The notes under the pieces were generated by a model. That model saw only the letters and a list, made by a program, of their open reading frames with translations. It was not told the DNA's origin and made no database searches. The position numbers were made by a program, and so were the translations under genes. A DNA stretch of 64,000 bases from NCBI GenBank assembly GCA_019096065.1, contig JAGUCH010000004.1, positions 5,766,001-5,830,000 on the forward strand, in the 5' to 3' direction. The stretch comes from Paracyclopina nana (taxonomy: Eukaryota > Arthropoda > Copepoda > Cyclopoida > Cyclopettidae). Shown here piece by piece: positions 32,410 to 50,026 of this stretch. Each line of letters opens with the position of its first letter. Position 1 is the first letter of the stretch.

Positions 32410-33815
32410 CTACACCATGGAATTATTGGATGAGGCTGCTAATGCAGCAGAAGTGCTGTATCCACCTGCAGCAGAGCTAGGGGTCACAGATCTGGCCTCA
32501 TCAGCGGCATCCTTGCTTGATTTCAACCTAGCCATGCTTGAGTATTGCTGTAATGAGGAATTATTTTGTTTGCCTGCGGCCTCTAGAGCAGTCTCAGAGT
32601 TTGTGGGCGAAGTGGAAGAGGCTGACACCACTGCGGAATACATGGATCCGTAATTGGCATTGCTGCCTCCAGAGGAGGTGTTGTAGCCCAAAGAAGGAGT
32701 CGCAGTGTTCATATTAAAAGCGGAAGCAGAACTGGTTAGTCCCCAAGCGAAGCCAGCTTTGGCCAAGCTGCTGGGTGAGGTGGGCACTTTGGCAGCCCAG
32801 TTATTGTAGGAGGAATATCCTGAATAGATGGAGTCGTCAAAGGGCTGCATTAACCCGTTGAACTGAGTTCCGAAGCCTGCAGCTGCGGCCTTTGAAAAGT
32901 CCCCAGTTGCTGTGATGAGATGGCGCTCGCGTTTCCGCCACTTGGCTCTTCGGTTTTTGAACCAAATCTGAAAATGTAAAGCACATATGACATGTGTGAC
33001 AGGTAACACAAATATTTGCCCGTTTTTGCTCATATCATCAGTGTAGAAGCTAGCTAAGTATTTATGCGTGCAATTGTGGTGTAAAGATGAAATAAGCCGC
33101 GCTGCAGCTCAACATTTCGACATGCTTACGCGAACTCTTGGCTCGGTGAGATTGGTCCACATGGCGATTTCTTCTCTTACGCTCATATCAGGGTAGCGAT
33201 TGCGCTGAAATAATGCTTCTAGCTCTTGCAGCTGTTGGCTCGTGAAATGCGTGCGTTGCCTCCGTTGCCTTTTGCTATTTTTGGTATTCTTCCCCTCTTT
33301 CGAATCATCCAATTGACTATCTGGATTATCCGGACTTTGACTAGGCAGCTCATGCCCAGGGTCTAAACAATGAAATGATCACCCTTCGATTTAACGAGAA
33401 AAATAGCTGTGAAAATACCTGGCTTTATTTTAACTGTGGATGTTGGCAAATGTGAAGATGTGCTATTGGGTGAATAGCTGGGGTCGACCCCGACGATTCC
33501 GGACGTGGAAACGCTACTGTTGTTCACCGAAGCGAGGCTGGACTGCAATGAGGTTAATGCTGATGAGGCCGAAGGAGGCTGCGGCGGACTGAAGGGCCGA
33601 TGCGGCGGCAGAGGTTGATTATGAATGGCTTGGTGGTGAGCATGGTGCACGTGGTGGACATGAGATCCTTGGTGGACATGGTGCTGAGCATAATAGTGGT
33701 GATGAGCTGCGGCTGCGGCGTGGTGATGGTGGCTCAAGTGGTCACCAAGGCCCTCAAGCCCACTCAGGTCAGTGAGGCCAGCATGGACAAGACTTGCTGA
33801 GCCTAGCATATCCAT
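32410..33815 (-). CDS. PITX: Pitx homeobox paralogue A
   Basis: Three minus-strand exons: 33815-33419, 33362-33130 and 32967-32410 (introns 56 and 162 bp), giving 395 residues. The N-terminal region is His/Ala-rich with DLSGLEGL. Exon 2 begins with DPG and [12 protein letters not shown] and then the paired-like homeodomain from [11 protein letters not shown] to EPRVR. Exon 3 completes it with [16 protein letters not shown], with lysine at homeodomain position 50 (the bicoid/Pitx class, which binds TAATCC). Downstream, [19 protein letters not shown] and YNNWAAKVP are Pitx-specific. The C-terminal OAR motif is degenerate ([11 protein letters not shown]). Pitx factors pattern anterior, oral, pituitary and left-right structures. 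The start ATG is at 33815; an in-frame GTG one codon upstream is not a likely start. The gene is divergent from Pitx-b at 47161. Confidence 0.93.
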
Positions 33816-47160: not shown

Positions 47161-50026
47161 ATGGATATGGCCAGCAGTCTCGTGCACCACCCCGGACTAG
47201 CAGGGTCGGCTGCGGCAGCTGCGGCTGCGGCCTCCTTCAACTCAACCAGTTCAGACCTGTCCGGACTCGAAGGTCTGGTGAATGCGGCTGCGGATCCGGC
47301 CAACTATTATGTGCACCATCACCACCACCAGGCCCACCAACTGCATCACCAGGGCCATGGGGGGTATGGGCAGCACGCAAACAGCAACCCGCACGGCGGG
47401 ACACCCCAGCAGCACCACGCCTACAACCAGCATTACAGCCAGAGGTCGTACTACGACCACGACTCCATCTTGGGCCTCGGCTCGACAACGGCGACCTCTG
47501 CGGCCGCGGTGAGCTCGGCAGCCTCGAATAACTCCAATAACGGCGAGAGCTACTCGCCGAATTCGACCACGGGTAATTTGCCCACTTCCACATCTACTTC
47601 TTGCGCTGGTGTCAAAATCAAGTCGGGTGAGCTGCAATCATTGGAAGATTAAATTAGAAGAGAAAGCCGAATATTTCTTAGCTCTCAGATAGGCGAACGT
47701 TGGAGCATGGGGGAGATAAATGGGGGGAATTAAGAAAGGAAAATTGAGCTTCGATGGATTGGATAAATGGCCCCAAACTGCCAAGAATTTCCGGGAGGTT
47801 AATGACCAAAAATCGAGAACCTCGCATTTGTTCTTGTCTCGAAAATCAAGGCCAACAACAGTGCACTAATCTTTGTGTCCGAGAATTTCCAATACGGCAG
47901 AACTACATATTTACTGCTGTATTCGTCTGCGAATGACAAATAGAGCTCTGCTGCAGTAGCCGTGAGAATTACTAATTATGCGTCTTCGCGCAGATATTAT
48001 TACAGCAAATATTTCCCAGTTTATAGCAGTGCAATTAATTAAGCAAAACTCATTGGCGCCACCGATTTCATACGTGTAATTTACAACTCATTTTTTCTTC
48101 ATGCGATTGTAAATCAAAAAGATAAGGTTTTTTCCGCGCATATAAAAAACAAAAAAGGATGCGCGTGTTCGAATAGCCCCAAAAAGGAAAAGACAGCCTG
48201 AAAACTACTCATTTTTTTCTCACAGTGCTTAGCCGCTTCTCCATGTTCAAGATCATATTTTAAAGTTTTCGAGAACGACAAAGTAGCAGCAGCTTGCTAG
48301 TCTGTATAGGGTCAAAAACTAGCCGTCGAGCACATATGCCTAATCCTCTACAAAGACTTGATGAGTTTTCCATTCTTTCCAGATCCGGGCTCACTTGAGC
48401 CTAGTCAAAGTCCCGACAACCCCGACAGTCAATTAGACGAGACAAAGGATGTCAAATCCAATAAAAAGAACAACAATAACAACATCAATGATAAACGCCA
48501 ACGCCGACAGAGAACTCATTTTACGTCGCAGCAGTTGCAAGAATTGGAGGCACTTTTCGCGAGGAATCGATATCCAGACATCAGCACCAGAGAAGATATC
48601 GCCATGTGGACTTCACTCACAGAGCCTAGGATACGAGTAAGTGAATGCCACCTTTTTTTACTGCAATTTATGCGTGTTTGCTTTCCCATGCCACCCAATT
48701 GTAGATAGGTGTTTACTCAGCACTCCTGGCTATCTGCAACACAATTGTGCAAATATCCTCCTTTAACGGCACCTGAAAAAACGGGGAGCTTTCCAGCAGA
48801 GTGGTAGTGCTGTTTTCAAGAGATCGAGTGTATTTTTCCATCTGAAAGCTTTGGTCTTTTTACCCAACTCATATGCTACTGCTAATGCTGTTGTCAACGT
48901 GTGCGAACAACTAGAGTGTATCGTACAAATTGTAATATTTGCACACATTCAATATAAGTGTAAAGACTAGAGATAAAGATATCATGTTCTGAATTGGAGC
49001 GTGGAAAAGTTAGCTTGGCGATACATAGAAGGTATACATACACAGAGATAAAAGTGCTATTTAGGGAGTATGATGTGATCCTCCATCTGAATGAATTAAA
49101 TAGCATGCGTTTTTTCGCCTCTTATTATCATCAATGGGTGTTTGCAGTTAGTAGCTAATGTCAACCTTGTCAATTGGATTTGCTTTATCTTCAAGCAAAC
49201 ATCTTTTGACAGCTCACTACAGTTCAAGATTTGCTCAACATATGTATGACCTCATCGTTATTACCTTGCTTTTCCCCTGCAGATTTGGTTCAAAAATCGG
49301 AGAGCCAAATGGCGAAAACGGGAGAGACACTTGGTGACAGCAGCCACGGACTTTGGCAAAGCTGCCGTGGCAGCCTCCGGATTCGGGCCACAATTCAACG
49401 GGCTCATGCAGCCCTTCGACGACTCCCTCTACACGGGATATTCCACGTATAACAATTGGGCTTCAAAGGTTCCCTCGGCTGCGGCAGCTTCAGGGTTTGC
49501 AAAGAGCTTCGCCACCTGGGGCCTCAACACTCCCTTGGCAGGGGCCATGGCTCATAATCAGGTGAGCTGGACTATTATTTGCCATCAGACGTAATCTTGC
49601 TTCGGGGATTAGCCTTGGAGTCCTGGAGCAAAAAAAAGAGGCGATGACAACTGACTCGTGCTATTTTGTTCATAGTTCAACATGAGTCCCACCTCGAGCT
49701 CAATGGCTGGGTATCCCTATGGGACGTCAGGCGCCGGGTATGCCGGGATGTACGCGGCGGCCGCCACCTCCTCCACCACCAAAGAGTCCTCAACGAGCTT
49801 TTCTTCGTCTCTCATGTCGGCCGGAGACTCGATCAACTCGCTCAGATTGAAGGCCAAGCAGCATTCGTCGTCGTCCTCAACCTCGCCAACGGCAATAGCG
49901 GCCTCGTCGTATTATCCGACCTCAGTTTCCCCGGGCAAAAGCAATGCGTCCGAGTCGCCCAACTTGGACTTTTCAGCAACGTCCGCGGCATCCGCGGCAG
50001 CCGTGGTCACCTCGGAATCCGTCTGA
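47161..50026 (+). CDS. PITX: Pitx homeobox paralogue B
   Basis: Four exons: 47161-47626, 48383-48636, 49283-49561 and 49676-50026, giving 449 residues. The N-terminal region is Ala/His-rich with DLSGLEGL. Exon 2 starts DPG, contains [12 protein letters not shown] and an Asn run, then the homeodomain [11 protein letters not shown] to EPRIR. Exon 3 continues [16 protein letters not shown] (Lys50 class) and has [16 protein letters not shown] and YNNWASKVP. Exon 4 carries a canonical OAR motif, [13 protein letters not shown], near the C terminus. The first two splice positions and phases equal those of Pitx-a; the third intron is specific to this copy. The start is the ATG at 47161; an in-frame GTG upstream is discounted. 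Introns (756, 646 and 114 bp) are longer than in Pitx-a. Confidence 0.94.

Follow-up and report, generated by a model that had tools for sequence, protein, structure and literature searches.

The genome assembly of the copepod Paracyclopina nana (GCA_019096065.1) comprises 91.95 Mb in 10 contigs. A stretch of 64,000 nucleotides of contig C4 (JAGUCH010000004.1, C4:5766001-5830000), here called the window, carries two genes of the Pitx homeobox family, gene A and gene B. Gene A is on the minus strand, with a coding span of 32410 to 33815. It is composed of three exons (33815-33419, 33362-33130 and 32967-32410) separated by introns of 56 and 162 bp, begins with an ATG at 33815, has a stop codon that ends at 32410, and encodes a protein of 395 amino acids. 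Gene B is on the plus strand, spans 47161 to 50026, and is composed of four exons (47161-47626, 48383-48636, 49283-49561 and 49676-50026) with introns of 756, 646 and 114 bp. Its ATG is at 47161, its stop codon ends at 50026, and its product is 449 amino acids long. Both gene models are predicted from the DNA. All five introns have GT..AG borders, and the spliced frames are open until the stop. With starts at 33815 and 47161 on opposite strands and both frames intact, the two genes form the head-to-head pair described in the original prediction. The homeodomain exons lie 15.4 kb apart on C4. The window contains no N, and both loci lie on this one N-free stretch.

The first two splice sites, also claimed to be common to the copies, are identical in position and phase. 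Intron 1 is in phase 1 in both genes, within the D codon of a DPG motif, and intron 2 is in phase 0, between homeodomain residues 46 and 47. Many paired-class genes have an intron at homeodomain 46/47, so sharing this position is weak evidence of kinship. The third intron of gene B is without a counterpart in gene A. The resemblance between the genes is not due to chance because it extends to the DNA of their exons. Exon pairs of A and B make up three of the five longest inverted repeats between 31.8 and 50.3 kb (115, 105 and 75 nt), and the gene bodies match each other in blastn with E values of 1e-33, 1e-13 and 1e-6. A protein stretch of 13 letters is identical between the two.

Both proteins contain a complete homeodomain (Pfam PF00046; 8e-23 in A and 2.1e-22 in B) with a lysine at position 50 (K50) and the WFKNRR motif. 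Among PDB sequences, the best match of each is PITX2/3, at 120.9 bits for A and 115.3 bits for B, while the next family scores 85.8 bits in both, a lead of about 35 and 30 bits, respectively. Over the 60 homeodomain residues, A and B are identical at 54, A and PITX2 (the PITX2 of 2l7f) at 55, and B and PITX2 at 51. Other paired-class homeodomains are more distant from both proteins than PITX is, by these bit scores and by a tree that groups A, B and PITX2 with an ultrafast bootstrap (UFBoot) support of 98. The OAR motif is borderline in gene B, where Pfam gives 20.0 bits (E 5.8e-4), just below the cut-off of 20.1. In gene A, the OAR has no Pfam match, and none was seen by eye in the 710 bp after the stop codon. 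Loss of the OAR would leave A within the Pitx family. K50 homeodomains prefer TAATCC-type sites, and by their sequence both A and B would bind such sites.

Protein B, used as the query against the genome, had 58 matches, six of which are the exons of A and B. The best match outside the pair is an aristaless-like gene (1.2e-17), so no third Pitx gene was found among these matches. When 109 homeodomain entries of the genome were compared, A and B were mutual closest relatives. In the tree, A and B group together apart from PITX2 with a UFBoot support of 97. The tree covers 46 columns of 28 homeodomains, which were selected for a YPD or YPT motif and include some that are not paired-class. The proposed Pitx paralogy by duplication is supported by both results. 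A search for relatives among 84,980 genomes of bacteria and archaea gave 28 pattern matches, none of which was confirmed.

The two copies are old and constrained at the protein level. Where both genes encode the same fourfold residue, the third codon position differs at 65 of 90 sites, yet nonsynonymous divergence (dN) is 0.096 over 102 codons in three conserved blocks and 54 of the 60 homeodomain residues are kept; synonymous divergence (dS) was not estimable by NG86. Overall, 213 of 379 aligned residues are identical. One alternative is that an ancient Pitx pair, of arthropod or older origin, was retained here and lost elsewhere, instead of arising by a lineage-specific duplication. The near-saturated fourfold sites agree with this alternative, as does the homeodomain of A, which is as near to PITX2 (55/60) as to gene B (54/60). 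Moreover, local engrailed, Otx, Pax3/7 and BarH pairs in this genome recall well-known local pairs of insects. Against this alternative stand the grouping of A and B against PITX2, and four homeodomain residues common to A and B, L19, M36, P43 and I47, which in the PITX2 structure are T, V, A and V, respectively. The harvestman also has one Pitx gene (PMC6107062, PMC12717030). We consider an ancient pair possible though distinctly the less likely origin.

The original prediction also held that the pair arose by duplication and inversion. The duplication stands. A tandem duplication with a later small inversion would account for the pair as well as a single event of duplication with inversion. 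Of the nine genes in the Hox cluster, two are likewise on the opposite strand. The inverted order probably reflects small rearrangements that are common in this genome, and selection on the order need not apply.

How ordinary this arrangement is can be seen from the homeobox genes of the whole genome. In a homeodomain survey, 150 of 179 candidates were scored and 129 matches were listed, and the counts are therefore lower bounds. Orientation was counted in 91 entries. The Hox cluster is not part of this set, nor are two Dll half-exons, a gene with three homeodomains and six of the total of eight zfh2-type homeodomains; a short Arx-like pair was added, and contig C10 was excluded throughout as a likely haplotig. 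When neighbours had to lie within 100 kb and to share an identity of 0.60 or more, the homeobox paralogues fell into 15 groups with 20 pairs. Judging by their signatures, we take these groups to be Msx, zfh2, apterous, islet, BarH, Pitx, unc-4, zfh1, engrailed, Lim1, POU, Otx, Pax3/7, caudal and Arx-like. Eleven of the 20 pairs are in opposite orientation, five divergent and six convergent, and the random expectation is 10, 5 and 5. The divergent pairs are Pitx, apterous, unc-4, one Msx pair and one BarH pair. At identity thresholds of 0.64 and 0.70, 14 groups and 19 pairs remain, still with 11 opposite and five divergent. Head-to-head order is common in this genome, so no special explanation is needed for it, and the rarity implied by the original prediction is misleading. 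Across the local pairs, 33 to 71% of the fourfold sites in homeodomain exons differ (10-22 sites per pair), with 8 of 13 for Pitx.

Several other loci were seen in the course of this survey. The Hox cluster (C5:6098996-6288032) has nine genes in 190 kb, with pb outside lab and with Dfd and ftz on the other strand; a Hox3-type gene was not recognised in this cluster, the list being a lower bound. The signatures of the Hox genes are those of an arthropod, and a search of the genome for COX1 gave no match. Four Msx-type genes lie within 45 kb (C1:3245578-3290280), two per strand, and the homeodomain of each is most similar to that of one of the other three, at 84-98% across its first 46 positions. 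Two four-homeodomain zfh2-type genes face each other about 60 kb apart (C1:14475597-14536811), and at C7:3399577 there is a near-copy of one zfh2-type homeodomain with conserved places changed, possibly a partial copy. Two Dll-type half-exons (C5:336000-337400) are on the same strand, 834 bp apart, and alike at 40 of 44 residues; they belong either to one gene, as alternative exons, or to two close copies. A third engrailed-like gene has an identity of 0.58, below the thresholds used. Four homeodomain hits of C6:6961780-7048266 recur on C10, their order unchanged and their scores equal, which suggests an uncollapsed haplotype. Neighbouring T-box matches are also grouped, on both strands (C1:15.02-15.07 Mb and C6:5.68-5.79 Mb), and resemble the local homeobox groups.

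The intergenic gap between the two start codons spans 33816 to 47160 (13,345 bp, 41% GC) and is a candidate for shared regulatory DNA. The claim that it is free of genes is well supported. In Rfam, the gap has no match at the gathering threshold. Of 18 open reading frames of at least 90 amino acids listed in the gap, one runs into gene B; none of the other 17 has a Pfam match over the cut-off, with two weak matches at E 0.015 and 0.068. A palindromic high-copy transposon, described below, accounts for three weaker microRNA-family matches at 36789-36919, which were rejected as non-coding RNA. A weaker snoRNA match at 42289-42352 (E 0.46) is also below gathering.

The pair has close neighbours on both sides. 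To the left, an open reading frame ends at 31785, 624 bp from the stop codon of gene A. To the right, a 103-amino-acid frame without a Pfam match over the cut-off has its ATG at 50326, 299 bp past the stop codon of gene B, and an HMG-box gene ends at 50806, 779 bp from the same stop. Little room for regulatory DNA is left outside the gap and the introns of B, because the flanking frames, if they are genes, are 0.6 and 0.3 kb away and the introns of A are tiny. The regulatory DNA of both genes therefore probably lies mainly in the gap or in the introns. The shared regulatory landscape suggested in the original prediction would rest on this anatomy of gap and flanks, and the size of the flanks is the best argument for it.

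The gap is also rich in the sequence that Pitx proteins would be expected to bind. It contains 13 TAATCC/GGATTA sites, the core recognised by K50 homeodomains, seven of which form a cluster at 40623 to 42859. The 15 background regions, 150,000 bases in total and including coding DNA, have 41 such sites, so that 3.6 are expected in the gap (Poisson 1e-4), and 46,200 bases from elsewhere in the window have six. The densest 3 kb (39918-42859) has eight sites, versus at most five in any of the 15 background regions. In random sequences, which were first-order Markov samples and not exact shuffles, 6.2 to 6.5 sites are expected; 13 were reached in 4 of 300 and 9 of 1000 sequences, and eight sites per 3 kb were reached by none of 300. 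Only the site at 39918 is within a detected repeat. Five motifs were tried in the gap, and the other four, TAATCT, TAATTA, TAAGCC and TAAACC, are not enriched there, their counts being reached by 176, 253, 76 and 295 of 300 random sequences, respectively. The cluster of Pitx-type sites is suggestive only, a lead that does not amount to evidence of autoregulation.

It would be wrong to call the gap empty, because several transposons lie inside it. The best defined is a high-copy insertion of 444 bp at 39319 to 39762, which we take to be a hAT-like non-autonomous element. It has inverted ends of 13 bp (CAGGGTGACCAGA and TCTGGTCACCCTG) and an 8-bp target duplication (CTGCCACT), and all four aligned copies have these ends and exact target duplications. 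At least 39 other copies at 89-99% identity are present among 1879 candidates, and the nearest is 99% identical. At C6 4129417-4129760, both sides of the element are matched and the insert is almost absent. A second high-copy repeat, at 36730 to 37075 (ends not mapped), contains a near-perfect palindrome of 144 bp (36782-36925) flanked on either side by CATT, a duplication of 4 bp. The copies of the palindrome are 97-100% identical and its fold has a z of -20.6; the sub-threshold microRNA matches arise from this hairpin. In other copies of the repeat, the outer pieces (query 1-52 and 197-346) join with a 4-base overlap. A third, palindromic high-copy repeat of about 220 bp (36132 to 36353) is found at 39 other places at 95-98% identity and has inverted arms of 65 nt that are 92% complementary. 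The transposons in the gap include young ones.

The explanation that we favour, and consider likely, is that a single Pitx gene was duplicated, that the copies ended as divergent neighbours, and that most of the enhancers for A and B would be found in the 13.3-kb gap or in the introns of B. Several points weigh against it. The tree has 46 columns and a single outside Pitx. The left frame (31321-31785) is without a Pfam match, and the kinase match of the long frame that precedes it is below the cut-off. The repeats in the gap amount to at least 1.3 kb (1,284 bases, a lower bound from matches within 330 kb of sequence). Among 2080 six-letter words, ten are more enriched over background than TAATCC, which is 11th, and the gaps of other homeobox pairs also contain it (five sites in 8 kb for apterous and one in 5 kb for unc-4). 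Finally, no duplicated enhancer is visible, because the two upstream halves, oriented by transcript, have no residual similarity beyond random; the best blastn score, 31.0 bits, is reached by 8 of 100 random sequences, and duplicated upstream DNA was rejected on this basis.

Some of these points favour an alternative in which A and B are regulated independently, so that the layout and the gap involve no shared control and the size of the gap is a product of transposon accumulation. With 11 of 20 opposite, the local homeobox pairs seem to be oriented at random, transposons are present within the gap, and no duplicated non-coding DNA was found. Against independent regulation, there is scant other room beside the pair, the detected repeats cover only a minor part of the 13,345 bases of the gap as far as that lower bound shows, and 12 of the 13 TAATCC sites are outside them. 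Independent regulation is a tentative alternative, one that we consider less likely than not. As for the reading that a single Pitx gene is present twice, as alleles left uncollapsed or through duplication in the assembly, the original prediction named allelic haplotypes as one refutation, and the assembly appears to hold one such redundancy elsewhere (the repeat of C6-end homeodomain hits on C10). An allele or haplotig origin is ruled out with near certainty here by the synonymous divergence, the overall identity of 213 in 379 residues, the unequal exon counts, and the different neighbours of two copies that share one N-free stretch of one contig.

The finding is genuine and ordinary in kind, a new case of a known class, the local pairs of homeobox paralogues. 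The other pairs of this genome (apterous, unc-4, Msx, BarH, caudal, islet, Pax3/7 and zfh2) are likewise neighbouring paralogues with an opposite-oriented pair, but they belong to other families, and the homeodomains of the opposite-strand pairs are 8 to 60 kb apart. The vertebrate PITX1-3 genes have the same K50 paired-class homeodomain and an OAR, to which gene B has its borderline match; they are on different chromosomes, whereas the pair here is adjacent. In Drosophila, gooseberry and gooseberry-neuro are a divergent pair of the Pax3/7 class with regulatory DNA between them, which is reportedly sorted by enhancer-promoter compatibility as tested with transgenes. Like that pair, A and B are two adjacent paralogous homeobox genes that point in opposite directions, without a recognisable gene between them. 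Unlike it, they belong to another family and are known from sequence alone. No head-to-head Pitx pair in an arthropod was found in the literature searched, though most subscription papers were beyond that search and absence is not proven.

The spider Parasteatoda tepidariorum also has two Pitx paralogues. Its Pitx-A and Pitx-B have expression that is partitioned relative to the single harvestman gene, and the copies come from a whole-genome duplication and are on chromosomes 3 and 6 (PMC6107062, PMC12717030). The spider genes are on separate chromosomes, whereas those of P. nana are 13.3 kb apart and divergent. Copies from a whole-genome duplication are expected on different chromosomes within paralogous blocks, and here both are on C4. 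The spider provides a precedent in which duplicated Pitx genes have divided their expression, although the duplication took another route.

Under the favoured explanation of a local duplication, both proteins would be sequence-specific transcription factors with overlapping targets, which they would recognise at TAATCC-type sites through K50. Their enhancers may be partly shared and partly promoter-specific, as in other divergent homeobox pairs. The copies may have been retained by divided expression together with different activity of the C-terminus, A being without a recognisable OAR. A much broader proposal is that the homeobox repertoire of this compact genome comes largely from repeated local duplication and inversion and not from whole-genome duplication, that its face-to-face and back-to-back paralogue pairs have single intergenic control regions, and that the Pitx pair, in which A would be OAR-less and the gap has its cluster of Pitx-type sites, is a divergent unit that regulates itself and its partner. 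We regard this proposal as improbable.

As a single case, the Pitx pair is unexceptional. If the gap controls both genes, the pair would offer a compact natural experiment on the division of a single regulatory region among two diverged copies of a conserved transcription factor, and would parallel the spider case, in which the copies were separated by genome duplication. The 15 homeobox groups would let this question of regulatory division be asked many times in one genome.

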